In this document: positions 30,814-59,867 of the stretch, piece by piece | Position numbering within the stretch: the stretch's first letter is position 1 | Layout of the letters: each line of letters starts with the position of its first letter | Origin: Nitrosopumilus piranensis | Lineage (GTDB): Archaea; Thermoproteota; Nitrososphaeria; Nitrososphaerales; Nitrosopumilaceae | Length of the DNA stretch: 64,000 nucleotides | Direction of reading: 5' to 3' | NCBI RefSeq assembly: GCF_000875775.1 | Contig: NZ_CP010868.1 | Location: 620,001 to 684,000 of the forward strand | Made by a program: the position numbers and the translations under genes | Notes under the pieces: generated by a model | Seen by the model: only the letters and a program-made list of their open reading frames with translations | Told to the model about the DNA's origin: nothing | Database searches by the model: none

Positions 30814-30836
30814 ATTGTGTGCCTGGGGCGAGTTTT
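30814..30836 (-). other. Degenerate copy of tRNA-Met 3' end (possible att remnant)
   Basis: The plus-strand stretch around GTGTGCCTGGGGCGAGTTT matches the 3' end of the tRNA-Met gene at 59755-59867 with one substitution in the acceptor/T-stem part, plus a one-base indel in the preceding AATTGTG flank. It has the same orientation as the intact gene. No complete tRNA can be folded here. It may be a decayed attachment site or a remnant of a duplicated tRNA gene. Confidence 0.5.
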
Positions 30837-30891
30837 GTGAAATTAGTTTGATGCCGCACCATTTTGTTTATAAATAAATTTAATTATAAAA

Positions 30892-31151
30892 ATTATTGAA
30901 CAAGTAATTCTTCCTGTTTTAACAAGTATTCTTGTTTTAGGTACAATTGAATTATCTTATGATTTCTTTACAGATCCTGATAAAAAATCAAGATTTTTGA
31001 CTACATTCATTTGTGATTCTGATGGCTCACTGTTTTTATCGGCAAAAATGATGACAATGAATGTAGCACTGATGAATTTTTGAAATTTATGGACTTTCCT
31101 ATTTTCAACAAACTAGTTGAGAAGGGAATAATTACTCCATGCAATCGTTAA
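30892..31151 (+). pseudogene. Frameshifted small gene remnant
   Basis: An open stretch without a start codon reads LPVLTSILVLGTIELSYDFF and then ICDSDGSLFL. After a one-base shift near 31050 it continues as GKNDDNECSTDEFLKFMDF to CNR and a stop at 31151. The continuity of composition across the shift suggests one former gene with a membrane helix and an acidic cysteine-containing tail. The lack of a start and the shift make function unlikely. Confidence 0.35.
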
Positions 31152-31347
31152 TTTCTTAATCCCTACGTCTATTTTTTTCCTAAATCTGTAATGGACTTGA
31201 ACTAATTTGAAATTATAATGAATTGACATCATCATTTCATCTTTGCTTAGAAATTTTTCTTCAAGATTCTTGGAATGTTTGCTCCTTTGAATTTGGTACA
31301 ATTTGATTTTCATCAAAACCTTTAAAGTACATTTTCTACCGTATACT

Positions 31348-33225
31348 ATGAAATTAATTTGGATGATGCTCCCAATGATTGCTTTGGGATTATTTGGAAT
31401 ATCAGAGTCTTTTGCACAAGAAGCAACTTCAACTGTAAATTCTTCTATTACTCAACAAAATCTAAAAGAAATGGTTGAAAACTGGATGAGCAATCCAGAT
31501 GAAGATGATACAAAACAACGTTTAGAAATTATGAAAGCATATTATGCATTTGAAGAAACAGGACAACAATTAATACACAACCAAGAAGGATTGGTCTTGA
31601 TGAACCAAATTAGAAAGATGGTTAGTCTGCAGATTCCAATAGAAGAGCTTGATGAATTACGAAGTCAAGTACAAGTGGAACTTGGATTGGAGATGCCTTT
31701 TGAAACTAAAATTTTCTATGTTGGCGCAAATCTGGTTGATTGTGTTGGGGTAGGGCCTATGAAATGCATGCAAATCCGTGAGGATCCTAATTCTAGATGG
31801 CAGAACTTTTATGATTCAATCAAAGGATTTGATTATACTGAAGGAAAGTCATACAAAATTTCAGTAAAAGTCACTGATATTGAAAATCCTCCTGCTGATG
31901 CATCAAGTAAAAAATATGAATTACTTGAAATCTTAGATCAAAAGTCATATGCAAAACACATTCCATACAAGGGATTATGTGCTCCAGGATTTGTTTCACT
32001 TGGAGAGATATGTGTTTTAAATGATAGATGTGGTTCTGGGATATATCCGGGTAAAGTCTGTGTTGTGGATGGAGTAAAGCAACCCTATCTCAAACCCCTA
32101 CATCAAGGCAATGCAGGAATTGCTGCAAGTGATGTTGTATGTGCAGATGGGTTCAAACTGGTATTCAAGCATGATATTACTCCTGTATGTGTACAGCCAT
32201 CTTCTGTTGACAAATTTGTAGAACGTGGATGGCATTTGGAGCCACCAGTTGTAGCATGTACTTTGGAATTTGCTCCAGTATGTGGAGTTAATGACAAGAC
32301 GTATGGCAACATGTGTGCACTAAATGCAGATCATGTTACAATGAAAAGTAAGGGTGAATGTAAAAGTATGACTGATAACACCTCTGGAATTTTTAATGAT
32401 GCTTTGAAGTATACATCAAAACCCCTAGTTGAAGATGAACAAAAAGGATATGCAGTAACTGAAATTGCAAGTGGTGTTTATTGGCTTGTTGGAGGTGGCT
32501 ATCAGACAATGTTTCTGACTACAGGACAAGGAGTTGTTGCATTTGATGCTCCTAAACCAATTGGCGAGAAATATCTGCAAGCAATAAACGAAGTTACTGA
32601 TGAGCCAATAACTCACATGGTTTATTCGCATCACCATCAGGATCATACAGGTGCTGCAGGAGAAATATTTTCCAAAGATGTAATTTTCATTGCACACAAA
32701 GATGCTGCTAAACTTTTAGAATCAGACAATGATCCTAATAGACCATTCCCTACGCAAATTTTTGAAGGTGATTTTAACACTTTAGAAATAGGTAGCAAAA
32801 CAATTGAATTCCATGATCTTGGAGAATTTCATTCAAAGGGAAATATGCTGATCTTGTTGCCTGATCACAAGATAGCAATGCTAGTTGATTTGTTCAGACC
32901 TGCCGAATCACCCTATCGTGCATTTGGTGTAACTCCAGACATTGAACTTTACTTGGAAAGTCATGATGTTTTACAAACTTTTGATTTTGATGTACTTATT
33001 TCAGGACATACAAATCTTCTTGCAACAAAGAAACATGTTGATACAAACAAGATGTTCACATTAGATGTACTACAAAATGCAAAGAATGCTTTAGCATTAT
33101 CAGATGTTCCAATTGATACTTGTACCACTAATACTATACAACAATGGGAGGGAAGACTAGGAAATTTGGATGCATTTATGGTAGATCATTGCACTGCAAT
33201 GATTGATTATTTGGAATCTAAATAG
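31348..33225 (+). CDS. Exported Kazal / metallo-beta-lactamase fusion protein
   Basis: The start is taken at MKLIWMMLPMIALG, a signal peptide; 15 upstream codons are open but not hydrophobic. A helical N-terminal region is followed by a cysteine module (about 205-300: GLCAPGFVSLGEICV and FKLVFKHDITPVCV), a Kazal-type inhibitor domain (C304 to about 337: FAPVCGVNDKTYGNMCALNA), and a metallo-beta-lactamase domain with metal ligands HHQDH from H428. Both the hydrolase and the inhibitor domain would act outside the membrane. Kazal domains block serine proteases; the MBL substrate is unknown. The cysteine module also occurs in the broken gene at 28191. Confidence 0.82.
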   Translation: MKLIWMMLPMIALGLFGISESFAQEATSTVNSSITQQNLKEMVENWMSNPDEDDTKQRLEIMKAYYAFEETGQQLIHNQEGLVLMNQIRKMVSLQIPIEELDELRSQVQVELGLEMPFETKIFYVGANLVDCVGVGPMKCMQIREDPNSRWQNFYDSIKGFDYTEGKSYKISVKVTDIENPPADASSKKYELLEILDQKSYAKHIPYKGLCAPGFVSLGEICVLNDRCGSGIYPGKVCVVDGVKQPYLKPLHQGNAGIAASDVVCADGFKLVFKHDITPVCVQPSSVDKFVERGWHLEPPVVACTLEFAPVCGVNDKTYGNMCALNADHVTMKSKGECKSMTDNTSGIFNDALKYTSKPLVEDEQKGYAVTEIASGVYWLVGGGYQTMFLTTGQGVVAFDAPKPIGEKYLQAINEVTDEPITHMVYSHHHQDHTGAAGEIFSKDVIFIAHKDAAKLLESDNDPNRPFPTQIFEGDFNTLEIGSKTIEFHDLGEFHSKGNMLILLPDHKIAMLVDLFRPAESPYRAFGVTPDIELYLESHDVLQTFDFDVLISGHTNLLATKKHVDTNKMFTLDVLQNAKNALALSDVPIDTCTTNTIQQWEGRLGNLDAFMVDHCTAMIDYLESK

Positions 33226-33269
33226 ACTAGTTCATAATTAAAATACTTTGAAATATTCCATAAATCTAG

Positions 33270-34991
33270 ATGCAGACCTTTACTAGTATCAGTACAAAAC
33301 TCATAGTTTTAGTACTTACCATCAGCATTACATCAATTGCAGTAACAACTGGATTGGCGTATAATTTTGTAGATTCTATTATCAAAGAAGATTTCAAAGA
33401 ATCTCTAAAGGATGAATCTGAAACAAGAGGTAATACAATCACATCAATCATTGAATCAAGAATTAACAAATTACAAGAATTTTCACAAAATGAGTCTCTT
33501 TTACATGCCTTTGATGTGCTGATACCTGCCTTGGATGATACTTCATTTGATAGAATTCTTGATGAACAATCCCCAATACTGCATTATGAGTTTAATTCAT
33601 TTCAATTAAACGAGTTTGAAGCTGGAATACGAGATCTTCAGATAATCAATATGCGAGGAAAACCAATATTTTCTTTAAATGAAAAAATTGATCCTACTAC
33701 TTATGTCAAAAGTAATTACAAAGTAAGCCAGCCTACTGTACAATTTGTTCAAGATATAGACAAGACACGCTTGCTCAAAATTTCTATTCCCGTTTATGAC
33801 AAAAATGAAAATCAAGACGGAGTCATGATTGCCACGATGGGTAGTTCTGTGTTTGACAATATTCTGCTGAACAGATTTGGATTGCATGATTCAGGGGAAG
33901 TATACTTGGTAAATGAAAATAAAATGATGATTTCTGAATCAATATTTTTTGAAAATGCCAAATTTAATCAAAAAGTAGACACATTTGCAGTGTCTGAGTG
34001 CTTTGAAAAAGGAAATAACGTAGAGGCTGCCGAATATACAGATTATAGAGATGTTGATATTTTTGGTTATTCTTATTGTAAACCTGATTTAGGATTTGTT
34101 TTACTAACTGAAGTGGATGAAGCAGTAATTCTAAAGCCAATAACAGAACTTCAAAACAGAATACTCGTTGTAGGTATAACTCTTATGGTAATTGCAAGTA
34201 TTGTTACATTTGTTCTCTCAAAGAGAATATCTACGCCCATTCTAAAACTTCGTAATGCTGCACAAGAACTGTCTTCAGGTAATTTTGATGTAAGAACAAA
34301 CATCAAAACAAATGATGAGATTGAACAACTATCCACATCTTTTGATGATATGGCAGAGACATTACAGGAAACAATTTCTGCAATAGGAAAACGTGAAAAC
34401 CTGATTAAAAGACAAGATGATATTCTCTTAAAGTTCTCTGAGCAAAAAAGAGAAGGCTATGTTTGTCTAATTGACTTGGTAGGCTCACTTTCATTAACGG
34501 AAACCCTTTCTGAAGACAAAAAAAGACGTTACAGTAAAATCTTTACGGATTCAGTAATTCCAATTATCAAAAAATATGAAGGAATACCAATCAAAATTAT
34601 AGATGATGCCATATTGTTTTATTTCCCAATATCTGATGATGATCAAAAATCTCTATCAAATACATTGAATTGTTGTCTGGATTTGACCAAATTAGATAAA
34701 GAACTAGATGAGAAAACAAAATCTGAGAATCTTCCTGGCATGTCTTATAGAATAAGCTCTGCATTTGGAACAGTTAATGAAGCCAAGACCTCCGATTCTG
34801 TACTAGATGATATTTTTGGAGAGCCAGTAAATACAGTCTTTATGATTAATCAGTATGCACTACCTAACACTGTAGTCGTTGATTACTCTATTTACGAAAA
34901 AGCAAAAGACCTCAGTTTCAAATTTACTAAATTAACCCGAAGTATAATCAAAGGATTGGAATATACTATTTTTGTAGTTTCGCTAAAGTAA
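33270..34991 (+). CDS. Membrane receptor: Cache, HAMP and class III cyclase domain
   Basis: A transmembrane helix (about 10-30) precedes an extracellular Cache-like sensor (about 35-290). A second helix (ILVVGITLMVIASIVTFVL, about 294-313) leads to a HAMP domain (RISTPILKLRNAAQELSSG) and a C-terminal nucleotide cyclase fold (about 390-560). The first metal-binding aspartate is seen in CLIDLVGS and the second in KIIDDAILFYF. The domain lacks the typical FxDI and GDG wording, so cyclase activity is uncertain; it may be a degenerate signalling domain. It presumably converts an external signal into a cytoplasmic one. Confidence 0.82.
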   Translation: MQTFTSISTKLIVLVLTISITSIAVTTGLAYNFVDSIIKEDFKESLKDESETRGNTITSIIESRINKLQEFSQNESLLHAFDVLIPALDDTSFDRILDEQSPILHYEFNSFQLNEFEAGIRDLQIINMRGKPIFSLNEKIDPTTYVKSNYKVSQPTVQFVQDIDKTRLLKISIPVYDKNENQDGVMIATMGSSVFDNILLNRFGLHDSGEVYLVNENKMMISESIFFENAKFNQKVDTFAVSECFEKGNNVEAAEYTDYRDVDIFGYSYCKPDLGFVLLTEVDEAVILKPITELQNRILVVGITLMVIASIVTFVLSKRISTPILKLRNAAQELSSGNFDVRTNIKTNDEIEQLSTSFDDMAETLQETISAIGKRENLIKRQDDILLKFSEQKREGYVCLIDLVGSLSLTETLSEDKKRRYSKIFTDSVIPIIKKYEGIPIKIIDDAILFYFPISDDDQKSLSNTLNCCLDLTKLDKELDEKTKSENLPGMSYRISSAFGTVNEAKTSDSVLDDIFGEPVNTVFMINQYALPNTVVVDYSIYEKAKDLSFKFTKLTRSIIKGLEYTIFVVSLK

Positions 34992-35177
34992 CAAATTTTT
35001 TCCTAGTTGGGTCAATACTCCCTAAACAGCATTTGACATGTAAACCCAGAATCTTGATCTGATTAGGTTCTTTTAAGGCTAAATCGATTGAACTCCGAGA
35101 TATTGATTTTATTTGTGAGATATTAAAAATGACAAATCGTTCATTGATGTTAAATACAAAATTTTTCTATATTGTTC

Positions 35178-35297
35178 ATGATGAATGTATGGAAATGTTA
35201 TCGGTGTGATCTGTCATTTGCCAAGGAATCTTATGCCAATATGCATCATGAAATAACAAAACATCCGTTTAGATCAATCGAATACATTGGTGCATAA
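35178..35297 (+). CDS. C2H2 zinc-finger mini-protein, 39 aa
   Basis: MMNVWKCYRCDLSF continues to MHHEITKHPF, giving a CxxC-x12-HxxxxxH site typical of single C2H2 fingers. Two adjacent ATGs can serve as start. It lies in an otherwise empty 466-base gap (34992-35457); the rest of that gap shows nothing recognisable. Single-finger proteins of this size are known in archaea; the target is unknown. Confidence 0.55.
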   Translation: MMNVWKCYRCDLSFAKESYANMHHEITKHPFRSIEYIGA

Positions 35298-35457
35298 AAT
35301 ACAAAATATCAGAAGAACTTTTCAATGACGGTAATTGATTTTCATACATCATGGTCCAATATTTTAAAATTCATTGTAGTTTAACAAAATAAAATTAACA
35401 AAAGCTCAACTTGTACATCTGTTTTATATTTAAACTCTATTAGAATTGAATTCATGT

Positions 35458-35820
35458 ATGGCATCTGCCAAAAAAATAATCAAGAAAGTTGCAAAAAAAG
35501 CAAAACGTACCGCAAAAAAGACAGCACCTAAAGCAAAACGTACTGTCAAACGCGTTGCAAAAAAAGCAAAACGTACCGCAAAAAAGACAGCACCTAAAGC
35601 AAAACGTACTGTCAAACGCGTTGCAAAAAAAGCAAAACGTACCGCAAAAAAGACAGCACCTAAAGCAAAACGTACTGCTAAGAACAAAGCATCAAAAGCA
35701 AAACGTACTGCTAAGAACAAAGCATCAAAAGCAAAACGTACCGCAAAAAAGACAGCACCTAAAGCAAAACGTACTGCTAAGAACAAAGCATCAAAAGCAA
35801 AACGAAAAACAAAACGTTAA
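35458..35820 (+). CDS. Lysine-rich H1-like DNA-binding protein
   Basis: About 120 residues made of AKKAKRTAKKTAPKAKRTV-type repeats, composed almost only of Lys, Ala, Arg, Thr and Val. This resembles the C-terminal tail of histone H1 and bacterial H1-like proteins, so it probably binds and compacts DNA or RNA. The start MASAKKIIKK is preferred over an ATG four codons earlier. The DNA is a perfect 66-bp tandem repeat in its first half. Low complexity leaves the other frames open too; this frame has the ATG, a promoter-like AT run and sensible composition. Confidence 0.72.
   Translation: MASAKKIIKKVAKKAKRTAKKTAPKAKRTVKRVAKKAKRTAKKTAPKAKRTVKRVAKKAKRTAKKTAPKAKRTAKNKASKAKRTAKNKASKAKRTAKKTAPKAKRTAKNKASKAKRKTKR
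35491..35677 (+). repeat. 66-bp tandem repeat (almost three units)
   Basis: Units start at 35491, 35557 and 35623 with a 66-bp period (22 codons) and no base differences in the shared parts. The third unit diverges after about 55 bases into shorter 24-bp-like repeats that run to the gene end. Confidence 0.9.
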
Positions 35821-36088
35821 TCTACTTTTGGGAATCCATATCTTTATTTTTTACTTATAATCAACTTAAATGCTATAGTTGGAAATGTTATATGGTGTGC
35901 TAGGTGGAACTGCTTTTCCATAACACTTCGTTTAGCTAGTCACCATTTTTTCTCATTTCGGAAACAATTGTGACAACAACGATTGCCAAACTTATTCCAA
36001 TTAATCCTATCCTACGAACCACTTTTCTCACTAAACCAGTTCAAATCTTATAGGATTCAAACTAAATTCTCATTTATCAATAACTAGT

Positions 36089-37624
36089 CTATGTTTTTAA
36101 TTTGAATACCTGGTAGTACTGATTTTCATTGACAAGTTCATAGTGTGTTTTTATCTGATCAATGTTATCAGTCCAGAATTTTGCAGCATTTGCAGAGTCG
36201 GAGTCAGGTTCCACTCCAAGAATAATCCATTTGTTGTGATTCCATGGTTCTTTGAAATATGGTTTGTGCAGGAACGATTCAATTCCTTCATGAAAATCAA
36301 TCAATTCAATTCCTGATGAAATCATTATTCTATGTGCTTGTGATGATCCTGTCATGATCAAAACTTTTCCATCATCATAATTGTCATAAAGAAAATCTGC
36401 TGTATGTTTTGCAAATGGTGCTTGCTTGTATATCCATCCACCATATGCGTCAAGATATGTTACCACTCCAAATGTTGGAGTGATGATCTGAAATACAAAC
36501 ATTCCTGCAACCACAAATCCCAAAATAGTTTTTTTGTTGATTTTTTCTAATTTCATCAACAATAATGGTGCTAATACTATTGCAAGAGGATACAGAAATG
36601 TTGCAAATCGTGAATTAAACCACCATTGACTCATCTCCCCTATGCCAATGAACATGGTAAACAGTGTAAACAAGACAGGCAAAGACATGTAAAAATACAC
36701 AGAGCTTGGAATGGACTTTATCTTCTCCTTTAGATGCAAAAAGTATCCTCCTGCTGCAAATGCAAGGATTGGTCCTGCAATCATTCCAGCTGCTGCACCA
36801 TAGATGTAAAGCACATTGTGTGGTTGAAGATACAAAAAGTCTCTGTATGGTCTTTCAACTGCTTGTGATGATGCTGCATAGAATTGTGCATTTGCAAATT
36901 CAAAAGGATTTTGGTAGATTATCAAATTCCATCCTACCCAGAAAACTATTCCGGTAAAAGATACTAGTGAAACTAGTATGATTGTTATTTTGTTAGAACT
37001 AGTTTTAGTCTTTATTGCAAAAAATAATGCAAACAATACGATAGCTGGTGCAAGAATCCAAGCTTCATATCTGCATAGTGTGGCGAGTACAACAAACACA
37101 GATGAAATCAAAATGAGTTTTAGATTGAGATCCTCAGTCACCCATTTTTGTAAAAAGTACACTGATGCAACAAAAAACAACAAGAAAGGAGCTTCGGTCA
37201 TTGCTGTAATGCCTAGATATAGTAAATTAGGATTAGATGCATAAAGAATACCCCCAATAATTCCAATCCATGGCTTACTGGTTTGTTTTAGTATTATCTT
37301 GTAAATGAGAACTGAAGTCATTGCATGCAATGGTATATTCACCAATCCTGCAAGTCCAGAACTAAACAAAGAATCTATCAAAGAAAATGGCAACATCATA
37401 AGATGGGGTAATGGGAGCCAAACTGTTCCCATCTGAATGATTCCTGGATCATTACTGTCCACAAACCTTCTTGCACTGTACAAATGAGACACTGCATCCC
37501 CATAATACAGAAATGAATTTTCATCAATTAGATACAAGATTCCAACTGAAACAATTCCAAACAGAATTGCGGCAATGAAGACTAGTCCTGAGATTCTTGC
37601 CCTGTTTTGAAGTAATGTGGACAT
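36089..37624 (-). CDS. GT-C family membrane glycosyltransferase (GT39/ArnT-like)
   Basis: A 511-residue polytopic protein with about ten helices. The first extracytoplasmic loop carries YYGDAVSHLYSARRF, where the Asp corresponds to the catalytic acidic residue of PMT/ArnT-type enzymes. Such enzymes transfer a sugar from a polyprenyl phosphate carrier outside the membrane. It is divergent from a GT2-GtrA gene that could make the lipid-linked sugar donor. The acceptor is unknown; S-layer or surface protein glycosylation is a guess. The 268-base gap before it, toward 35821, shows nothing clear. Confidence 0.8.
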   Translation of the reverse strand: MSTLLQNRARISGLVFIAAILFGIVSVGILYLIDENSFLYYGDAVSHLYSARRFVDSNDPGIIQMGTVWLPLPHLMMLPFSLIDSLFSSGLAGLVNIPLHAMTSVLIYKIILKQTSKPWIGIIGGILYASNPNLLYLGITAMTEAPFLLFFVASVYFLQKWVTEDLNLKLILISSVFVVLATLCRYEAWILAPAIVLFALFFAIKTKTSSNKITIILVSLVSFTGIVFWVGWNLIIYQNPFEFANAQFYAASSQAVERPYRDFLYLQPHNVLYIYGAAAGMIAGPILAFAAGGYFLHLKEKIKSIPSSVYFYMSLPVLFTLFTMFIGIGEMSQWWFNSRFATFLYPLAIVLAPLLLMKLEKINKKTILGFVVAGMFVFQIITPTFGVVTYLDAYGGWIYKQAPFAKHTADFLYDNYDDGKVLIMTGSSQAHRIMISSGIELIDFHEGIESFLHKPYFKEPWNHNKWIILGVEPDSDSANAAKFWTDNIDQIKTHYELVNENQYYQVFKLKT

Positions 37625-37706
37625 TCTTTTTGTTCATCTGTTCCTAAGTTAATAATGATTCAGCTAGTATGAAATAGAGCCATTCTAGAACTAAATCAGA
37701 TACACA

Positions 37707-38846
37707 ATGACAGAAAATCAGGTCTCGGTGATTATTCCTACATTCAATGAATCTGAGAATATCTGTAATGTGTTGGATTTAATCAAAGAACATCTTCCAA
37801 GGATTAATCTTGAGGCAATAGTAGTTGATGATAATTCTCCTGATGGAACAGGAAAAATTGTTGAAGATTATGTAAAAATCAAGGGAAATGAAGAATATCC
37901 TGTATCCGTTATCCATAGAAAAACAAAATCAGGTCTCAGTTCGGCAATTCTAGATGGTCTAAAAAAATCCAATGGAGATACAATAGTTGTAATGGATTCT
38001 GATTTGTCACACCCTCCACAAATAATACCAAAGATGCTAGAAACACTGAGAAAGACACAGTGTGATATTGTTGTGGCTTCAAGATATGTTGCAGGAGGGG
38101 CAATTCAAGGATGGCCATTTAAAAGAAAATTGATGAGCAAGATTGCAACCAAAATTGCAAAAAAAGGGTTAGGGATTAATTCTGATGATCCAATGTCTGG
38201 ATTTTTTGTATTTAGGAAGAAAATCACAGAAGGGCTAAAGTTTGATGCTATCGGTTACAAGATGTTATTAGAATTACTTGTTAAAGCAAATGGTGTAAAA
38301 GTAGAAGAAGTACCATACACCTTTACCGATAGAAAGAAAGGCTCAAGCAAACTTGACACATCCACAATTATTGACTATTGCAAGTCTGTATGGAAACTGT
38401 ATAGATATGGTAGACAAGTAAGAAAAACAGAAAAAAGGGTTTCAGTTAGGTTTCTCTCAAAGGCTGCACGATTCTTTACAGTTGGAGCATCAGGTCTTGG
38501 TGTAAATTATTTGGCATCATTGTTGTTTTCATCTAGTCTTGATATGTGGTATCTTCATGCTACTATTCTTGGAATTGTGTTTTCTATTACCAGTAATTTT
38601 GTACTAAACAAATATTGGACATTTGAAGATAGAGACTTTGCGCCAAAGAAAACTGCAATCCAGTATGGAAAGTTTGCAGGGTTTAGCTCAATTGGTGCAC
38701 TAGTTCAACTTGGAATGGTGTATTATTTGGTAGATGGATTTAGCTTGTCGTATCCTGTAGCATTAGTGTTGGCAGTTGGGACTGCAGCATTTAGCAACTT
38801 TGTACTAAACAAGAAATGGACATTCAGAGAAAAAGTCTGGAGCTAG
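37707..38846 (+). CDS. Polyprenol-phosphate glycosyltransferase with GtrA domain
   Basis: The N-terminal GT2 domain (about 1-230) shows VVDDNSPDGTG and VMDSDLSHPP, matching dolichol-phosphate mannosyltransferases. The C-terminal part (about 250-375) has four helices and two FVLNKYWTF/FVLNKKWTF motifs typical of GtrA. The enzyme would attach a sugar from a nucleotide donor to polyprenol phosphate and the GtrA part may help flip it. It pairs logically with the divergent GT-C gene. Confidence 0.88.
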   Translation: MTENQVSVIIPTFNESENICNVLDLIKEHLPRINLEAIVVDDNSPDGTGKIVEDYVKIKGNEEYPVSVIHRKTKSGLSSAILDGLKKSNGDTIVVMDSDLSHPPQIIPKMLETLRKTQCDIVVASRYVAGGAIQGWPFKRKLMSKIATKIAKKGLGINSDDPMSGFFVFRKKITEGLKFDAIGYKMLLELLVKANGVKVEEVPYTFTDRKKGSSKLDTSTIIDYCKSVWKLYRYGRQVRKTEKRVSVRFLSKAARFFTVGASGLGVNYLASLLFSSSLDMWYLHATILGIVFSITSNFVLNKYWTFEDRDFAPKKTAIQYGKFAGFSSIGALVQLGMVYYLVDGFSLSYPVALVLAVGTAAFSNFVLNKKWTFREKVWS

Positions 38847-38847
38847 A

Positions 38848-39149
38848 TTATCTTACATAATCGTCTTCTAATCTTTTAATATCTAATTCATCAAATACTC
38901 TAAATGATATTTCCAAGATTTTCATGTCTATAATTGCCTCTAGTCTATGAACTGCTTTTTTTGGAATTACTATTTCGTCTCCTGTCTGTATATTTTGTTT
39001 TTCTTCTAATATGGCATATCCCTCTCCACTTAGAACTACCATTTTTCAGATCTTTGTTCATGGAATTGAAGACTGGTTCTGTTACCTGCAAGTATGGTGA
39101 TTATTTTGATAGTGGTTTCGTTATCTGTTAGTTGCTCAAAAAACCCCAT
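38848..39149 (-). pseudogene. Cupin (mannose-6-phosphate isomerase type) with frameshift
   Basis: The first part reads MGFFEQLTDNETTIKI to FHEQRSEKW and stops; the second, in the next frame, reads VVLSGEGYAILEEKQNI to DDYVR. Joined, they make one sugar-isomerase-type cupin of about 100 residues; a single missing G in TGGTAG explains the break. The beta-strand metal ligands (HEQ and HRLEA) are both present. An alternative is re-initiation at the overlapping ATG (39042). Its position beside two glycosyltransferases suits a role in sugar supply. The frame is also open upstream to 39224. Confidence 0.65.
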
Positions 39150-39230
39150 GGCTTGTTGACTTTCATTTGTATCTAATCCAAATAGAATTAACATTATAAC
39201 TCCATTGCAATTTTTGATAGTCATAGTTTC

Positions 39231-49824: not shown

Positions 49825-49874
49825 TGTATTGCACTGTCATACAAAATATGTCTCTCACAAAAGAAAAAAGATGC

Positions 49875-50681: not shown

Positions 50682-50800
50682 GATTCTATAATTCTTATTT
50701 TATTATTATACTAAATTCTGATTATCAAGTTTAATTTTCACATGTGAAATCTGTTTTAGCATTTTTATCTACAAGTATCAATAGTCTATGTGAGGTAAAG

Positions 50801-51076: not shown

Positions 51077-51080
51077 AAAA

Positions 51081-51572: not shown

Positions 51573-52093
51573 TTTGAAAATTTTAATGATACAGAATTTT
51601 CTGTTATTGTAACATTCCCATCTCTGTTTAACGTGGACTGGATAATTGCCTCTAAGAATGCCTTTAGAAAAACTGAGCCTTTCTTTCCAAAATCATGATG
51701 AACACTTACTGTATTGATGTTGTTATTTCTTTGCATATCACATACTCCATACCCACAATTCTCAAAATACATCTTGACAAAATCTGACACTGTATCGGGA
51801 GTGAGTTCTTTCCACTTGAATAATATGAAATCTTTTGGTTCTTTGGAGCCAATTGATTTTGCAAAATTTATGATATTTTTCTCATCTAGTGTGCCTAATA
51901 ATTCCTTGAATGCACCTTTACTCATCTCAATCATGCCAAATTTCTTCATGTATTGATCAAGCTCTACATGGTCTCCTAGGATTTGGTTTGCCAAAGTATT
52001 GAGACTGATTCTTTTCTCTTCTGCTTCTTTTCTTAATCCTTTTTCATGCTCTTCATTGATTCGAAATGTTATCGTGGATGTCTTTTTTGCCAT
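51569..52093 (-). CDS. Ribbon-helix-helix regulator, 174 aa
   Basis: The start MAKKTSTITFRINEEHEKGL matches a CopG/Arc-type ribbon-helix-helix; 29 upstream open codons lack sense and overlap the divergent gene. The DNA-binding part spans about residues 4-48 (LRKEAEEKRISLNTLANQIL). The C-terminal 120 residues form a separate domain with YGVCDMQRNNNINTVSVHHD, possibly a sensor. It diverges from the rhodanese/MBL gene, which it may regulate, with 69 bases between starts. Confidence 0.75.
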   Translation of the reverse strand: MAKKTSTITFRINEEHEKGLRKEAEEKRISLNTLANQILGDHVELDQYMKKFGMIEMSKGAFKELLGTLDEKNIINFAKSIGSKEPKDFILFKWKELTPDTVSDFVKMYFENCGYGVCDMQRNNNINTVSVHHDFGKKGSVFLKAFLEAIIQSTLNRDGNVTITENSVSLKFSN

Positions 52094-52162
52094 GTCTGTA
52101 GTGATTGCACATGTTTGCAGTATAAACTTCTTGATTATATTTGGCAAATACCAATAATACTC

Positions 52163-53566
52163 ATGACACAAAATAACCAAAATTTAGGAATAACTGCTAA
52201 TGAACTAAATGAGGATTTGGCGCAACAAAAACCTCTATTGTTATTTGATCTTAGATTGCAAAGTGATTTTGAAAAATCCCACATTGATGGTTCTGTTCAT
52301 GCTGTATGTGATGCACAATCAAAAGAAAAAATTATGACTAAAATTCCAAAAAATACCAAAATTGTATTGATTTCCGACCCTGAAGATTTTTCAAAAGAGA
52401 CTGCATCAATGATGAGTTCTCTTGGCTTGGATTCTCATTATTTAACAGGTGGATTTTCATCATGGGCTGGAAAAACAACAACAGGTCCTACTGGAAAAAC
52501 AATTTCACCTGATAACTTGGCAAAACAACTAGATGATGTATTCTTATTAGACGTTAGAAACACTGACGAGTTTTCAGAGTTTCAAATTCCTGGAAGCAAA
52601 AACATTCCATTAGGTGAACTCTTTGATGCAAAAACACTTTCCCAAATTCCAAAAGATAAACAAGTTGTAACTATATGTCCTCATGGAAATCGTGCAATGG
52701 TTGCAAGCTTTGCACTAGAGCGTGCAGGAATTGCTTCTCAAACTCTTGAAGGTGGATTGGCTGGATGGAATCAAGTTCTAAAACCTGTATCTATAGTAAA
52801 TGATGCTACAAAAATTATTCAAGTACAAAAAGTTGGAAAAGGATGTCTTTCACATATTGTAGCATCAGACGGTAAGGCTATGGTGATTGATCCATTGTAT
52901 CCTTTTGAGAAATACATCGATATTGCAAAAGAACGGGGCTTCAAAATAACCAAAGTGTTTGATACTCATCAACATGCAGACCATGTTTCAGCTGCAAGAG
53001 ACCTTGCAAAATCAACTGGTGCAGAACTATACCTTTCAAAGTATGAGGGATATGATTATGATGCAAATTTCATTGGTGATGCAGACAAAATTTCATTTGG
53101 AGCAGCAAATCTAAGAGTAATTCACACTCCAGGACACACTCCAGGAAGCCTTAGTTTTGTAGTTGATGAAAAGTATGTCTTTACTGGCGATATCTTGTTT
53201 GTTGAATCTATTGGAAGGCCTGATTTGAGAGATAATGCCGAAGAATTCACAGAAGATCTTTACAACACATTGCATGAAAAATTACTAAAACTTTCAGATA
53301 ATACAATGGTATTTCCAACACATCATGGAGAAGATGTAAAATCTGAAAATGATGCATTTTACTCTACTATACAACAATCAAAGAAACTTCCATGGCTTGA
53401 TATCTCAAAACAAGAATTTGTTAGAAAGGTAGTTGCAATTACTCGTCCAAGACCTATGAACTATAGGAAGATAATTACTGTTAACAAGGGTGAGTTGGAA
53501 CTAGTACATTCTGAAATTCCTGATTTGGAGATTGGTCCAAACAGGTGTGCAGTAGATGCTAGTTGA
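52163..53566 (+). CDS. Rhodanese-MBL fusion, persulfide dioxygenase-like
   Basis: The start is taken at MTQNNQNLGITANEL. Two rhodanese domains come first (about 1-100 and 115-215). The first lacks the active cysteine, and the second has CPHGNR with C172. A metallo-beta-lactamase domain of the ETHE1/glyoxalase II type follows, with HQHADH from H269 and GHTPGSL and GDILFVE later. Such fusions oxidise persulfides and move sulfane sulfur. It overlaps the TauE-type exporter gene by 11 bases, which suggests one operon for sulfide or sulfite handling. Confidence 0.88.
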   Translation: MTQNNQNLGITANELNEDLAQQKPLLLFDLRLQSDFEKSHIDGSVHAVCDAQSKEKIMTKIPKNTKIVLISDPEDFSKETASMMSSLGLDSHYLTGGFSSWAGKTTTGPTGKTISPDNLAKQLDDVFLLDVRNTDEFSEFQIPGSKNIPLGELFDAKTLSQIPKDKQVVTICPHGNRAMVASFALERAGIASQTLEGGLAGWNQVLKPVSIVNDATKIIQVQKVGKGCLSHIVASDGKAMVIDPLYPFEKYIDIAKERGFKITKVFDTHQHADHVSAARDLAKSTGAELYLSKYEGYDYDANFIGDADKISFGAANLRVIHTPGHTPGSLSFVVDEKYVFTGDILFVESIGRPDLRDNAEEFTEDLYNTLHEKLLKLSDNTMVFPTHHGEDVKSENDAFYSTIQQSKKLPWLDISKQEFVRKVVAITRPRPMNYRKIITVNKGELELVHSEIPDLEIGPNRCAVDAS

Positions 53567-54344
53567 ATTTTTACCAGACCTTCTGACTACTTTTCTCTCA
53601 ATTGTATCGGGAATTGTTGTAGGATTTAGTCTTGGTTTGATGGGTGGAGGTGGTTCTGTATTGGCAGTACCATTGTTACTGTATGTAGTTGGTATCAAAG
53701 ACATGCATATGGCAATAGGAACATCAGCTCTTGCCATAGGAATTATTGCTGCAATCAATTTGCTAAATAAAAGAAAAAACAACAATCTAAAATTAAAACA
53801 AGGATTGTCATTTGCATTACCTGGTATTGCTGGAACTTTGATTGGCTCTCAACTTGGATTGCTAACTCCTGCAGAAAATCTAATTGTTTTCTTTGCAGTC
53901 TTTATGGGGATAATTGGTGTGATAATGATGAAAAGACCACATACATCAACTCAAACTAGTAGTAACTCAAGACTAGTCTTATTTCGAAAAAACTCTTCAT
54001 TGTATGGTGTTGCAGTAGGTGTGCTTGCAGGCTATTTTGGAATAGGCGGTGGTTTTCTCATTGTTCCCACAATGATGTATTCAGGAGGGTTAAACATAAT
54101 TCAGGCTATTGGAACATCCATGATTCCTGTTAGTTCTTTTGGATTAGTTACTGCTGGACGCTATTTTGTAGATGGCAATGTTGACTTTGTAATTGCAATG
54201 CTGTTTGTAATGGGAGGAATAATTGGAACTCGTATTGGAATTAAAACATTAGAAAAAATTCCAAAACAAAATGTTGTAAAGATATTTTCTGTAATGCTAT
54301 TTGGCGTTGCAGCTTATATTGTAATTAGGACATTTTTACTCTAA
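53556..54344 (+). CDS. TauE/SafE-family anion exporter
   Basis: A 262-residue membrane protein with about eight helices in two repeats. Each repeat opens with the typical GxxxGxGGGxLxVP pattern (GLMGGGGSVLAVPLL and GYFGIGGGFLIVPTM). Members carry sulfite or other small sulfur anions outward. Its ATG lies within the end of the rhodanese/MBL gene, so the two products likely act together. Confidence 0.88.
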   Translation: MLVEFLPDLLTTFLSIVSGIVVGFSLGLMGGGGSVLAVPLLLYVVGIKDMHMAIGTSALAIGIIAAINLLNKRKNNNLKLKQGLSFALPGIAGTLIGSQLGLLTPAENLIVFFAVFMGIIGVIMMKRPHTSTQTSSNSRLVLFRKNSSLYGVAVGVLAGYFGIGGGFLIVPTMMYSGGLNIIQAIGTSMIPVSSFGLVTAGRYFVDGNVDFVIAMLFVMGGIIGTRIGIKTLEKIPKQNVVKIFSVMLFGVAAYIVIRTFLL

Positions 54345-54399
54345 TTGCAAATGGCGTATCTCAAAAATCTACTTACCCTACCTTGATTGTGAAATAAGT

Positions 54400-54755
54400 A
54401 TGCCTTACAATAAAACAGATCAGGAAAAATGCCATTTTATATTGGCAATACCTAAAATTAGATTTGCAGGATTTTTAGATTATATGGGAAATCTCATTGT
54501 TGGAGATTCCAGTCAGGAACATCTCCAATGAAAAGTGAGGCTGAACGAAAAAAGATGTTTGTAGAGGCAGTATTGTGAATTAGAACCAGACAAGATTTTG
54601 ATGAAAATCTTGGGCCTATAGAGTATACTGCAGCAAGAAGGAAAAATGTTGTAACTATGACCATTCCATTAAAGGATCATATTCTTTTTATTGCAGCTGC
54701 ATCAGATGTGTTGATTGATTCGACTGCAAGAAAAATTCTAGATTTACTTTCATAA
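54400..54755 (+). pseudogene. Broken small conserved soluble protein gene
   Basis: MPYNKTDQEKCHFILAIPKI continues to DYMGNLIVGD in one frame, then SPMKSEAERKKMFVEAVL appears in another, followed by an in-frame TGA and IRTRQDFDENLGPIEYTAAR to ILDLLS ending at 54755. The joined text of about 115 residues looks like a conserved Nitrososphaerota protein of unknown role. One frameshift near 54525 and one stop at about 54576 break it. Confidence 0.6.
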
Positions 54756-54863
54756 CTACTCTTTCTATTTTCCAAAAATGGTTCAAACCTCTATGACTTC
54801 AAACCAATACCTCAAAACAACTATTGTTCTGCAAACCATGCTGATTTATTTTTAAAATCTGTT

Positions 54864-55379
54864 TTAGGCAAATAATTTTGCAAAGAAATTTTGAATATTC
54901 AAAAACAACTCATCAAATGGAGAAACAGTCGGACATCCTTCAATACTTACTGGTAAACTAAGAGTAGGAGCTAGTAGATTCATGTTTTCTATATCATCAT
55001 ATATTGCAAAATTAACAATATATTTTCCACAAGATACAGGTTCCCAAGGTAATATTGGACTAAATTCTTCTCCAGGTGCCAACACTCCATCCAGTTGTGC
55101 ATTTGCTAATTCTGTATTGTCTTCAACATTCACTATGTGTACTGTATAAGCAAAACTTTGCTCTGTTGTTTGAAGATTAATTAAATCAGTTCTGATCATG
55201 TATTGTTCTCCTATGGTAACAATATTGGTTACACTCCCATTCACTGAATCAATTATTGATGGATTCGCAAGTGATAATGTAAAATCTGCCATGGCTGGAG
55301 TTATAATCAAAAACATGAAGCTAAAAACTAACGATACACCTATTTTCTTCGTAAGAGATCTCGTTATTTGCTTTGACAT
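54864..55379 (-). CDS. Exported beta-domain protein under TetR operator
   Basis: The start MSKQITRSLTKKIGVS is preferred; the 17 codons before it run across the promoter and palindrome. The signal peptide ends near PAMA, and one beta-sandwich domain follows (VTIGEQYMIRTDLINLQTTEQSF, cited only as landmark) with a cysteine pair (VSCGKY and EGCPTV). It resembles the C-terminal domain of the exported protein at 19434. An operator like the one beside the tetR gene lies just upstream of its TATA box, so it is probably TetR-controlled. Confidence 0.72.
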   Translation of the reverse strand: MSKQITRSLTKKIGVSLVFSFMFLIITPAMADFTLSLANPSIIDSVNGSVTNIVTIGEQYMIRTDLINLQTTEQSFAYTVHIVNVEDNTELANAQLDGVLAPGEEFSPILPWEPVSCGKYIVNFAIYDDIENMNLLAPTLSLPVSIEGCPTVSPFDELFLNIQNFFAKLFA

Positions 55380-55413
55380 TATGGTATTATCAAGTAATGG
55401 AATATATAAATAA

Positions 55414-55429
55414 ACCGACCAGTCGGTCA
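55414..55429. promoter_or_regulatory. Predicted TetR operator (copy 1)
   Basis: The palindrome ACCGACCAGTCGGT, with a flanking CA, lies directly upstream of a TATA-like TTTATATATTCC (minus strand) and 35 bases before the ATG of the exported gene. A regulator bound here would block access of TBP/TFB. Shared core with 56206-56225: GAC-Y-AGTCGGTCA. Confidence 0.72.
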
Positions 55430-55553
55430 TATTATAAGATTAAATGATTCCTGTCACATGTTCCAAGAATCATACTCTCATTTGGAATTCTGACTTATCT
55501 AAACTCCTAAAAAACAAAAATCCAGAAATTAGGTAAAGTTTAGAAAATAAAAA

Positions 55554-56189
55554 TTATTTTTTTGATGTGTAAATGATAAACATTATTCTGGCCCAAGTGT
55601 TTTTGCTTTCTTGCTGATCTTTTCCAGATAATTTCTCAATAAATAATCCTCTCATCACTACAATAATTCCTTTTACTATCTCCATCAATTCTTTATCATC
55701 ATATTTTTGGAGAATTCCTATTTTTTCTCTAGAAATCTTTAATCCCTCAAAAAGTATCTGAGTTATTTCCTTGTCTTTTTTTTCCATCATTTGTCTTAGC
55801 TTTACGTTGTTTTCTGATTCTATTCTTCCCTCAAGCCACAACCTCTCAAAATCTTTAGTTCCAGCAATTGCCAAATCATAATACTTTTTTAAATCATCAA
55901 ACAAGTTTTCTTTTTTTTTAAACAGCTTTTTGCCTTCATTTTCTAAAAGTCTAAAAATTCGCTGAAATTCTGCATCTATACCTTGACTTAGAACTTGAAA
56001 AAACAACTCTTCTTTACTGTGAAAATGATAAAACAAAACTCCCTTGCTTACACCTGCAGTAGAAACAATGTCATTCATAGATGTCTTTTGATATCCATTT
56101 TTTGAGAATTTCTTTTTGGCTATTTGAAGAATTTTCTTTTGTATTTTTGTAAGGGGTTTAGATGACACCTTATTATTTTCCTCACACAT
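55554..56189 (-). CDS. TetR/AcrR-family transcriptional repressor
   Basis: The N-terminal TetR helix-turn-helix is clear (KKFSKNGYQKTSMNDIVSTA, then GVSKGVLFYHFHSKEELF), followed by about 140 residues of helical ligand-binding domain with charged helices. The 211-residue length is typical. It diverges from a flavin monooxygenase, with a palindrome between them, and a second palindrome lies upstream of an exported gene. TetR proteins usually release DNA on binding a small molecule, here perhaps the monooxygenase substrate. Confidence 0.88.
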   Translation of the reverse strand: MCEENNKVSSKPLTKIQKKILQIAKKKFSKNGYQKTSMNDIVSTAGVSKGVLFYHFHSKEELFFQVLSQGIDAEFQRIFRLLENEGKKLFKKKENLFDDLKKYYDLAIAGTKDFERLWLEGRIESENNVKLRQMMEKKDKEITQILFEGLKISREKIGILQKYDDKELMEIVKGIIVVMRGLFIEKLSGKDQQESKNTWARIMFIIYTSKK

Positions 56190-56205
56190 CTACAATAAGA
56201 TTACT

Positions 56206-56225
56206 AACTGACTAGTCGGTCAGTT
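56206..56225. promoter_or_regulatory. Predicted TetR operator (copy 2)
   Basis: AACTGACTAGTCGGTCAGTT is a near-perfect palindrome immediately upstream of a TATA-like TTTATATAATATT and 28 bases before the monooxygenase ATG. It also lies 17 bases before the tetR start on the other strand, so it could serve both genes. Confidence 0.75.
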
Positions 56226-56253
56226 TATATAATATTTTTCTTATTGTATTAAC

Positions 56254-57459
56254 ATGTTTAAGAAAAATGTCGTGATAATTGGATGTGGGATTGCAGGACC
56301 TGTTCTTGCTTTAGCTTTACATCGTGCAGGAATTAAATCTGAAATTTTTGAGGCAAGAAATGAATCAGATACTGATTCAGGATTATTTCATTACATATCC
56401 CCTAATGGAATGAATGTGGTTAACATACTTGAAATTTATGATAAAATTAAAAATGTTGGGTATGATTGTAACGGAGTAATTCACTATGATGAAAATGGTA
56501 ATATTTTTGCAACTATGGATGAAACCAACGAAAAAGAAATCTATGGTGTAGGTAGTATTATGATTCAACGTAAAGTATTAACAAAAGCACTACGCGAAGA
56601 AGTAGTTTCGAAAGGAATTAAAATACATTTTGATAAAAAATTAAAAAACATAGAAAATACTGCTGACTCAAAAATAGTTGCTCATTTTGAAGATAATTTT
56701 AACACTCAAGGTGATCTTCTTGTAGGTTGTGATGGAATACACTCACGTACTCGCCACATAATAATGCCAAACATACCAAAGCCCACTTATACTAACATGA
56801 TTGTTTCTGGTGGATACACAAATATTCCCTTGAAAGACAAGAATTCTAACATAATCCATACTAATTATTGTAAGAAAGCATTTCTTGCATATTGTATTTT
56901 ACCCGATGGGGAAATTTGGTGGTGGAATGGAATGTCTTATCCACAAGAACAATCTAGAGAAGAATTGGAAAGAATTTCTGATGAAAAATGGCACAGGAAT
57001 TTGATTAATTTGTATGATGAAGATCATGACGTAGTTAAAGAATTGGTGCATGCAACATCTAAAAAATTTCTCAAATATCCAATATACGAAATGCCTTCAA
57101 TAGAAACTTGGTACAAAAATAATGTATGCTTAATAGGAGATGCAGCGCATGCGTTATCTCCACATGCAGGACAAGGGGCATCAATGGCAATGGAAGACGC
57201 AATGATGCTTGCAAAATGCCTTAGAGATGTAAAAGACATACAAAAGGCATTTGAAAAATTTCAACAATTACGTAAAAAAAGAGTCGAAAAGATTGCAAAG
57301 ATAGCACATGATGTTGGTGAAAATTATTTTCTAACTAGCCCAATCAAAAAACGATTTAGAAACATTTCTATGAAACTTATGTATACTCCATTTATCTTCA
57401 ACCGAATGGCTAAATTCTTTTTTGGATATGATGTTGAATGGGATATAAAAGTAAAATGA
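56254..57459 (+). CDS. FAD-dependent monooxygenase (PHBH family)
   Basis: An FAD-binding GCGIAGPVLALALHRAG at residues 10-26 and GDAAHALSPHAGQGASMAME near 290 match aromatic-ring hydroxylases of the p-hydroxybenzoate type. At 401 residues it is full length. It likely uses NAD(P)H and oxygen to hydroxylate a small organic substrate. It lies directly after a TetR-type operator, and is followed by two overlapping genes, so the operon could detoxify or convert an inducer. Confidence 0.87.
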   Translation: MFKKNVVIIGCGIAGPVLALALHRAGIKSEIFEARNESDTDSGLFHYISPNGMNVVNILEIYDKIKNVGYDCNGVIHYDENGNIFATMDETNEKEIYGVGSIMIQRKVLTKALREEVVSKGIKIHFDKKLKNIENTADSKIVAHFEDNFNTQGDLLVGCDGIHSRTRHIIMPNIPKPTYTNMIVSGGYTNIPLKDKNSNIIHTNYCKKAFLAYCILPDGEIWWWNGMSYPQEQSREELERISDEKWHRNLINLYDEDHDVVKELVHATSKKFLKYPIYEMPSIETWYKNNVCLIGDAAHALSPHAGQGASMAMEDAMMLAKCLRDVKDIQKAFEKFQQLRKKRVEKIAKIAHDVGENYFLTSPIKKRFRNISMKLMYTPFIFNRMAKFFFGYDVEWDIKVK

Positions 57460-57590
57460 TTGAAAAAGTAGGATGGGATGAAAAAATGAACAATATTGAT
57501 GGTTTTGAGTATTTCAATAAAAACAATTTTGGAAAAATTTCTAAAATCTCAAACAAGAAAATGAACTTGAAAAATTCAAAAAGGTACTAA
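57456..57590 (+). CDS. Small basic protein, 44 aa
   Basis: An ATGA overlap with the monooxygenase stop opens MIEKVGWDEKMNNIDGFEYF, ending in a lysine/asparagine-rich tail. It ends one base before the TTG of the serine hydrolase. It may be a real coupled mini-gene or a remnant of a larger one; no family is recognised. Confidence 0.4.
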   Translation: MIEKVGWDEKMNNIDGFEYFNKNNFGKISKISNKKMNLKNSKRY

Positions 57591-57591
57591 C

Positions 57592-58656
57592 TTGGCAATT
57601 GAAGAAATTATTGAAAATCATGTAAAATCAGGAAAAAGCCCTGGGATTTCTGTTGGGCTAGTTAATGAAAATGAGACTATGACTTTTAATTTTGGAGAAA
57701 TCAAAAAAGATTCAGGAGTTGTACCAACTAATAAAACAATTTATGAAATAGGTTCAATGACTAAAACTTTTACTACAATATTAGCAGCACAACTTCAAGC
57801 TGAAGAAATAATATCTCTTGATGAAAAAATCTCAAAATACCTCCCAGAGCTTGAAAATTCAGAATTTGAGAACAAAAATGTAACGTTGCGTCATCTTTTA
57901 ACCCACACATCAGGCATATCCGAATTTTCGGTAAAGACATTTGCTTCACAAATATTTTCAATAATGTCTACAGGAAAATCACGAATTGTTGAATATGAAT
58001 ACGATACAGAAAAATTTCTAAATTATGTTTCTGCATTAAAATTAAAACATTCACCTGGAAGTACTTGGATGTATTCAAATCTAGGTTTTGGTTTGGTAGG
58101 AAAAATACTTGAAAGAATTACTGGAAATTCATATGATGTTCTTGTAAAAACTCATATCTGTGATGTACTTGATATGAAAGATACTGGAATTGATGTTTTT
58201 GAATCCCACAAAGATCAACTAGCAGTTGGTTATTCTTTTAGAGGTAAGCAAGCTGATTACTGGAATGTGCCTGCAATAGAGGCAGCAGGAAGCCTATACT
58301 CGACTCCATCTGATATGGTAAAGTTCCTAAAGGCAAATCTAGGTTTAAGCAAAACAATACTATATCCTGTTTTTGAATATTGTCAAAATACCAAAAACAC
58401 TCCAAAAATCCCTCTATCTATGAAATTTTTTACAAAAGCTGTGGGGATTTCCTTGCATAGCTTTCGTGCAGGTTGGTTTGTTTTTCCACAAGAAAATGTA
58501 GATATTCTTGGACATGATGGCGGTACAGAAGGATTTTCTAGTTTCATGTGCATGAATCTAGGAAACCAATCAGCTGTTGTTATTCTAACAAATAGAGCAA
58601 TGAAACCAGTTCACAAATTAGGATTGTCGTTACTTCAGGAAATCAATAAAAAATGA
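57592..58656 (+). CDS. Serine hydrolase (class C beta-lactamase family)
   Basis: The catalytic SxxK is S55-MTK58 in GSMTKTF, the YSN motif lies near residue 162 (WMYSNLGFG), and HDGGTEGF near 306 supplies the third motif. The fold is that of penicillin-binding and esterase-type enzymes. Archaea lack murein, so an esterase or peptidase role is more likely. There is no signal peptide, so it acts in the cytoplasm. The start is TTG. It overlaps the following gene by ATGA in the TetR-linked run. Confidence 0.85.
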   Translation: MAIEEIIENHVKSGKSPGISVGLVNENETMTFNFGEIKKDSGVVPTNKTIYEIGSMTKTFTTILAAQLQAEEIISLDEKISKYLPELENSEFENKNVTLRHLLTHTSGISEFSVKTFASQIFSIMSTGKSRIVEYEYDTEKFLNYVSALKLKHSPGSTWMYSNLGFGLVGKILERITGNSYDVLVKTHICDVLDMKDTGIDVFESHKDQLAVGYSFRGKQADYWNVPAIEAAGSLYSTPSDMVKFLKANLGLSKTILYPVFEYCQNTKNTPKIPLSMKFFTKAVGISLHSFRAGWFVFPQENVDILGHDGGTEGFSSFMCMNLGNQSAVVILTNRAMKPVHKLGLSLLQEINKK

Positions 58657-59417
58657 AAACTAGGTTTTTGATAATTCTTGGAATTGTAGTGGCCGTCTCT
58701 GTACTTTATGCGAGTATTTCAATAAATGATAATGCCATTAATGTAATTTACGATTCTCAGAGAAACTCTGTTGATATTTTTCAAGATTTTGTTAATTCCC
58801 AAAAAAGGGTAGATACGACAATGAATACATGGTTTGATATGATGCTTCACAGTGATGATGATCTGAAAAATACTGTGGCAATACTTGAATCAGAAAAAAA
58901 TATTCAAGATAAACTTTATGATGAATATGTAAATTTACCTGACAGTGAAAAAACTAATGAAGAGATTCATCGTAAAATTATAGATTCAATCAATGATGGT
59001 TGGCTTGCAAAAAATATTGAAAATTTGAAACCTCAAAAAGATGCAGAGCGTATTTTCAGGATAACATTAGAACACAATGGATGTGAAAACACATGTCCTG
59101 TTTATTCTATCATGATTGATGGTGATGGATCAGTACTTTACAAAGGATTGAAAAACGTAAAAGAAATTGGAAAACAAGAATATCAAATTCAGTCTGATGT
59201 CTTAACTGAACTAAACCCATTCCTTCTTGAAGCATATCGTGATAACATAGACGAATATGGTGTCCAAGATGATGCTAAAAACACAGTAATTATTACCATC
59301 CAATTTGGCCAGCCAAAAAGAATTACCAATCATGACAATTCTGGACCAGTATGGCTAAAAGATTTTGAAGATAAAATTAACGAAATTGCACAAACAAGAC
59401 AATATGTATTTGGTTGA
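58653..59417 (+). CDS. Exported protein with DUF6438-like domain
   Basis: Begins MKTRFLIILGIVVAVSVLY, the same leader as the series at 45-49 kb. A helical region (about 40-125) precedes ITLEHNGCENTCPVYSIMID and GDGSVLYKG, the pattern of DUF6438 (a CxxxCPVY core). The pair of cysteines may form a disulfide. It starts in an ATGA overlap with the serine hydrolase and ends just before a zinc-ribbon gene. Confidence 0.75.
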   Translation: MKTRFLIILGIVVAVSVLYASISINDNAINVIYDSQRNSVDIFQDFVNSQKRVDTTMNTWFDMMLHSDDDLKNTVAILESEKNIQDKLYDEYVNLPDSEKTNEEIHRKIIDSINDGWLAKNIENLKPQKDAERIFRITLEHNGCENTCPVYSIMIDGDGSVLYKGLKNVKEIGKQEYQIQSDVLTELNPFLLEAYRDNIDEYGVQDDAKNTVIITIQFGQPKRITNHDNSGPVWLKDFEDKINEIAQTRQYVFG

Positions 59418-59418
59418 T

Positions 59419-59625
59419 ATGGGAATCTCTAACTGCAAAAACAAATGTATTTTATTTGAAGTTATTTCTAAACACAAAGCCTACGAATTTGGTGGGTGTT
59501 TTTGTAGGAACTGTAATTACTATTTTAAGAAAAAATTTTTACGATGTCCTTGTTGTAATACACGTGTTCGCTACTCAACTAGAACTAACAAACGAAGAGT
59601 AGAATCTGATGTAATCCGAATATGA
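59419..59625 (+). CDS. Cysteine-rich zinc-ribbon protein, 68 aa
   Basis: The start MGISNCKNKC is chosen (the frame is open further upstream into the previous gene). It follows the pattern of the 43215 gene: CKNKC, then GGCFCRNC, then FLRCPCC and a basic RVRYSTRTNKRRVESD tail. The two paralogs are also close in DNA over the C-terminal half. Both lie beside MKTR-leader exported genes. Zinc binding is inferred; no function is known. Confidence 0.72.
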   Translation: MGISNCKNKCILFEVISKHKAYEFGGCFCRNCNYYFKKKFLRCPCCNTRVRYSTRTNKRRVESDVIRI

Positions 59626-59754
59626 CTGTCTCAAATAGAGAAAAATAAAATGAGAACTTTTGGAAAAAATGTAGGTCAATCCACATGAGCCAATACTTGG
59701 TAAACTCTTTGGCGTGCAACCAAAACTCCATTGCGGTATTAAACCAATTTGTGT

Positions 59755-59867
59755 GCCGGGGGCGAGTTTCGAACTCGCGACCTCCAGATTATGAGTATTG
59801 CCTTAGTTGGAGAACCGCTAGAGTCTACCAAGTAACTGGCACTCTAACCAGGCTGAGCTACCCCGGC
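59755..59867 (-). tRNA. tRNA-Met (CAU) with 39-nt non-canonical intron
   Basis: On the minus strand: acceptor GCCGGGG/CCCCGGC, D arm GCTCAGCCTGGTTAGAG, T stem GCGAG/CTCGC around TTCGAAA. The anticodon loop CTCATAA (CAT at 59791-59793) follows a stem that pairs properly only when 39 bases (59797-59835) are removed from the 5' strand, giving CCAGA/TCTGG. The intron therefore lies within the anticodon stem, not at position 37/38. The spliced length is 74 nt. No CCA is encoded; the discriminator is A. Elongator type is suggested by similarity to archaeal elongator Met tRNAs. Confidence 0.88.

Follow-up and report, generated by a model that had tools for sequence, protein, structure and literature searches.

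A probable degraded integrative island at a reused tRNA-Met site in Nitrosopumilus piranensis, with a large inversion beside its scar

Introduction

How does a 28.9-kb block of accessory genes without an integrase come to lie between a tRNA-Met gene and a displaced copy of that gene's 3′ end? The question is raised by the window analysed here, a stretch of 64,000 nucleotides from Nitrosopumilus piranensis (bases 620,001-684,000 of the 1,713,078-base genome), for which a first-pass annotation had proposed a past integration at the tRNA gene. Integrated mobile genetic elements (iMGEs) at tRNA genes, including "cryptic integrated elements", have been described in Thaumarchaeota (Krupovic et al., 2019; PMC6563490), and no published description of this tRNA-Met locus was found in the literature. 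An overview of the features discussed below is given in Table 1.

Table 1. Features of the tRNA-Met locus in the window, in window coordinates.
Feature	Position	Strand	Basis or remark
Present left flank: reductase, nitroreductase, two small genes	26250..29642		Beside leuS/alaS in relatives, not beside tRNA-Met
1.2 kb at the inversion join, outside the scar	29643..30814		DNA comparison: unmatched in G101 and G078
Accessory island, 28.9 kb, without integrase	30815..59752		att pair at both ends; variable or absent in relatives
Far att scar, displaced copy of the tRNA 3′ end, 20/21	30815..30835	-	21-mer search
Conserved element arm, island side of the scar	30836..30878	-	Also in G013, G036, G052, G078 and G002; decayed in G101
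Exported protein with DUF4377, Kazal and metallo-beta-lactamase domains	31303..33225	+	Pfam
Sensor protein: dCache, HAMP, weak cyclase-like domain	33270..34991	+	Pfam
Glycosyltransferase pair: PMT_2 on -, GT2/GtrA on +	36089..38846		Pfam
Exported protein, weak BNR-repeat similarity	39231..41795	-	Pfam
Small exported and zinc-ribbon proteins, in a run	44551..49222	+	ORFs
Rhodanese/metallo-beta-lactamase protein and TauE-type transporter	52046..54344	+	Pfam
TetR regulator, FAD monooxygenase, beta-lactamase-fold protein	55554..58656		Pfam
Short remnant of the tRNA-side element arm, CACAAATTGGTTTAATACC	59735..59752	-	Aligned tRNA-proximal sequence of relatives
att core, tRNA-side copy (tRNA 3′ end and 5 bases beyond)	59749..59769	-	Exact 21-mer TTGTGTGCCGGGGGCGAGTTT
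tRNA-Met(CAT) with 39-nt intron	59753..59867	-	ARAGORN with introns allowed; 3′ end leftward, attachment site
Topoisomerase IB, conserved right flank adjoining tRNA-Met in relatives	59910..61571	-	Comparison of relatives

Results and discussion

The tRNA-Met and its att pair

The intact tRNA-Met had been placed at the right edge with its 3′ end facing left, and ARAGORN returned it there as c[59753,59867], the sole full-length match in the genome. Because of its intron, the gene is not returned by the default tRNA scan. A whole-genome search with the att core TTGTGTGCCGGGGGCGAGTTT gave a second copy at 30815-30835, with one mismatch and on the same strand as the tRNA-Met, which agrees with the degenerate tRNA end that had been read in this orientation at about 30.82 kb. 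No further site with three or fewer mismatches occurs elsewhere in the single-contig genome of 1,713,078 bases, the reversed 21-mer used as a control pattern has zero matches, and the number expected by chance under a first-order Markov model is 2.4e-6 sites per genome. The many scattered copies of the tRNA fragment that the first-pass annotation had named as a counter-finding do not occur. Inward of the scar, the likeness to the scars of relatives extends as a conserved arm to about 30878.

The same locus in relatives

The relatives, comprising named Nitrosopumilus and other Nitrosopumilaceae, were gathered with topoisomerase IB. Their gene order is topoisomerase IB, tRNA-Met, an insert of variable size, conserved genes and tRNA-Ser(GCT). 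Beyond the insert, nearly all relatives have a gene labelled c5 here; its distance from tRNA-Met ranges from about 40 bp to 79 kb (inserts of about 0-79 kb), and the content of the long gaps is different in almost every genome. The relatives thus do not share the gene content enclosed in the window. The same neighbourhood with a small gap is present in a Nitrosotalea MAG and in other, more distant thaumarchaeal MAGs, and the gene order is therefore old. A clean empty site is provided by the Nitrosopumilus MAG SFB3 (L155), in which tRNA-Met is directly followed by the outer scar flank of G101 and G078; other genomes with short gaps are G006, G023, G024 and G049. An empty site had been anticipated as a junction of the sequences at 30.8 and 59.9 kb. 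The empty site itself exists, but joining these two positions does not rebuild the ancestral site, as the partner flank lies at 1.599 Mb in this genome.

As in the window, the displaced tRNA end follows an arm close to GGCATCAAACTAATTTCACAAAA in each of G013, G036, G052, G078 and G002, and G101 retains a decayed copy of the scar 2.7 kb from tRNA-Met. In all six relatives, the arm of about 45 bp and the displaced end have the same orientation and lie at the far end of the tRNA-Met insert. Seven sequences, those of the six relatives and the window, served to train an arm-plus-core profile, and its scores of 55-72 bits for this set are not an independent test, since they come from the training sequences themselves. 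Outside the training set, G002, G070, G087, L165, L167 and L179 gave weaker matches, each located on that side of topoisomerase IB where tRNA-Met lies. No match reached 12 bits in 416 kb of control sequence, taken from a different variable region, or in shuffled hotspots. The IMG/VR viral contigs scanned for the arm-plus-core motif gave no match, and a free element with this attP is therefore not known from that collection.

The integrase family at tRNA-Met

In G078, a tyrosine integrase of 442 aa begins 45 bp from tRNA-Met and, in the alignment, just past the counterpart of the arm at 59735-59752. Homologues of the same family are located 40-180 bp from tRNA-Met in L156, L164, L178, L188, L201, L204, L219 and G087, the last of which belongs to another genus, and integrase fragments only are left in G013. 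On the tRNA-Met side of the window, only the short arm remnant 59735-59752 remains. The integrase remnant sought inside the island did not turn up: PF00589 has five matches in the genome, none of them in the island. We infer that the integrase family found beside tRNA-Met in the relatives made this scar.

Two observations concern the tRNA genes of this neighbourhood. The tRNA-Met beside topoisomerase IB in G052 (L235; G052:C1:501631-501747) has lost its last ~18 nt and is no longer detected by ARAGORN, whereas at 1.09 Mb (L236/L239; G052:C1:1093619-1093740) the gene is complete and has the same 40-nt intron. An integrase with 51% identity to the tRNA-Met integrase of G078 lies 14 bp from this complete copy, in a region with a polymerase-like gene; tRNA-Met seems to survive in G052 only as an element-linked copy. 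Integrase matches also adjoin tRNA-Ser(GCT) (G078:C1:1261585-1261983 and G018:C5:12048-12242), which suggests a second insertion site in the same neighbourhood.

Content and composition of the island

The enclosed genes are accessory, as had been noted: exported proteins, small regulators, zinc-ribbon ORFs, a sensor, glycosyltransferases, a rhodanese/metallo-beta-lactamase protein and a TauE transporter, and the Pfam families of the 20 island proteins scanned are exported, sensory, regulatory and redox. Several have homologues in the tRNA-Met islands of relatives, namely the exported protein at 31303 (68% identical, G002 and G078), the sensor at 33270 (79%, G078), the exported protein at 39231 (80%, G052) and some proteins of the run from 44551 to 49222 (G102 and G052). 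In G078, the counterparts of the two genes nearest the scar, at 31303 and 33270, stand in the same order and face the same way with respect to its scar, and this shared arrangement suggests one common integration with later turnover. For five island proteins, 14 close homologues (70% identity or more) were counted in 18 genomes, of which six are located in tRNA-Met islands, whose share of each genome is no more than a few per cent; the other eight lie elsewhere, so the cargo may also come by other routes. The window also encodes, at 35446-35820, a Lys/Ala-rich repetitive protein of 124 aa with KAKRTAKK repeats and a composition like that of histone H1, without a match in the hotspots of the relatives compared.

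Hallmarks of mobile elements were not detected by Pfam (20 island proteins), PHROGs or NCBIfam, and the same three sources yielded no integrase, replication or transfer genes in the island. In the Pfam scan of the 20 proteins, there was no match to a Cas1-type casposase or PolB, to VirB4/VirD4-type transfer genes, or to capsid, portal, terminase or other virus hallmarks; PHROGs matched two of ten island proteins, all with entries of unknown function. The GC content is slightly lower in the enclosed genes than in those outside (34.5% vs 36.7%, P=0.005). Codon usage and GC3 do not differ between inside and outside, and the shift in codon usage that had been looked for did not materialise.

Origin of the island

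Observed here are the pair of att sites, the conserved arms, relatives with and without an insert and an integrase family at tRNA-Met, and together they bear out the geometry of tRNA integration that the first-pass annotation had recognised. The lack of mobility genes in the island and its native codon usage count against this account, as do the eight close cargo homologues located outside tRNA-Met islands. On balance, we are confident that this is a degraded integrative island at a reused tRNA-Met hotspot, which originated from a tyrosine-recombinase element, lost its integrase and came to have an inversion beside its scar. The attP core of such an element would have recombined site-specifically with the 3′ end of tRNA-Met, rebuilding the tRNA gene on one side and leaving on the other the displaced 3′ copy fused to the arm that the element brought with it. 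The integrase gene, which directly adjoins tRNA-Met in relatives, would have been lost later, with cargo genes coming and going between the two att sites. The outcome would be an accessory island of 28.9 kb that is probably immobile.

It is more likely than not that these 28.9 kb never were a single element, and that successive insertions and deletions at tRNA-Met produced a mosaic in which the scar marks only the oldest event. Past the scar, G036 shows an element arm of a second type and G013 a repeat of the tRNA-side arm and the integrase start, patterns that look like stacked successive insertions; weaker internal scars in G002, G070 and G087, inserts of up to 79 kb and cargo homologues scattered over the islands of different relatives point in the same direction. 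A search for an internal scar in the window, however, found none. This mosaic history is largely compatible with the integration account and refines it.

The inversion beside the scar

Comparison of gene order identifies an inversion of ~0.95 Mb in this genome, one breakpoint of which falls no more than ~100 bp from the scar. The reductase gene (26250-27266 in the window) is found near leuS/alaS in complete relatives, ~0.7-0.9 Mb around the circle from topoisomerase IB. In this genome, leuS/alaS (1,587,882-1,593,459) neighbour c5, which starts near 1.600 Mb, and the outer scar flank of the relatives is found beside leuS/alaS at 1.599 Mb, 0.95 Mb away. Both junctions are evident from the aligned sequences. 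Relative to G101, the breakpoints fall in the short gap past the gene ending at 29642 and in a gap of roughly 70-100 bp outside the scar; the join at 1.599 Mb is tight, and that in the window contains 1.2 kb of other sequence (29643-30814). The stretch from the nitroreductase gene to leuS in relatives forms a second variable region (L058-L077; G000:C1:1593459-1599000), which ranges from almost nothing to >10 kb. The other breakpoint derives from this region, so that through the inversion the left flank of the window comes from another variable region. As c5 lies close to topoisomerase IB in G083, a member of another genus, the order in this genome is derived. The present left flank had been considered as ancestral, a reading dropped because leuS/alaS and the outer scar flank lie together at 1.59-1.60 Mb. 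We infer that the inversion, which cut the chromosome just outside the scar, came after the integration.

G038 (L095, 4500-6620) has the reductase gene about 2 kb from tRNA-Met and no scar; an exported protein and an apparently release-factor-like gene lie in between, and the gene order resembles that of the window minus the island. G038 was dropped as an empty site because it has no scar, is more distant than the relatives with ancestral order and has its leuS match at a contig end; its pair of neighbours probably reflects either an assembly fault or an event of its own.

That the integrase itself made the inversion, by recombining the scar with an att-like site near the reductase gene, is improbable. 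The breakpoint does adjoin the scar, and the reductase gene is also close to tRNA-Met in the more distant G038. However, no att core was seen at the reciprocal join at 1.599 Mb (L113), which leaves such an origin unsupported; the gap outside the scar measures only about 70-100 bp, so that closeness is weak evidence, and G038 is a multi-contig assembly without a scar. Highly improbable is that a rearrangement copied or moved the tRNA end and that the enclosed genes are ordinary chromosomal ones with no integration history, for although the inversion breakpoint just outside the fragment and the native codon usage would fit, six relatives without the inversion carry the same fragment, arm and orientation at the far end of their inserts, and an empty site exists.

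Relation to known elements

Tycheposons and other tRNA-anchored islands of marine bacteria are likewise cargo-rich, sit at tRNA 3′ ends and undergo repeated turnover, and they differ from this island in their bacterial hosts and other integrases. The thaumarchaeal iMGEs share with it tyrosine-recombinase integration at tRNA 3′ ends, including those of intron-bearing tRNAs, and a cargo that is mostly unknown; their att repeats have a median of 17 bp, compared with 21 bp here (PMC6563490). In contrast to them, this island has lost its integrase and its far flank has been displaced by an inversion. The main text of PMC6563490 names neither tRNA-Met nor this island. Of the features by which thaumarchaeal iMGEs are recognised, the att geometry and an unoccupied site in relatives are present here, and an integrase next to the tRNA is not. 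As the integrase is absent here and present beside tRNA-Met in G078, G087 and others, the island is filed as a degraded remnant and not as an intact element. Genomic islands described in the same genus, in Nitrosopumilus koreensis AR1 and N. sediminis AR2, are likewise strain-specific gene blocks, of >15 kb, which the accessible part of that article does not tie to the tRNA-Met site (PMC4010524). The kind is thus already known, that of thaumarchaeal tRNA-targeting integrated elements, and this island is a new member of it.

Implications for the locus in Nitrosopumilus

More tentatively, the tRNA-Met of Nitrosopumilus may be a genus-wide cargo port used by one integrase family, whose modules would end in an arm-plus-core scar and stack to grow islands, with some inserts persisting without an integrase; the port might double as a breakpoint of near-megabase inversions, beside the scar in the genome of the window and possibly independently in G038. 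The comparison fixes the address of a main variable locus in a dominant group of marine ammonia oxidisers, together with its integrase family and its two att arms. Strain-specific genes can therefore be sought and compared in the interval that separates tRNA-Met from the conserved genes preceding tRNA-Ser. Local synteny can mislead here, as the partner flank of the scar is 0.95 Mb off in this genome.
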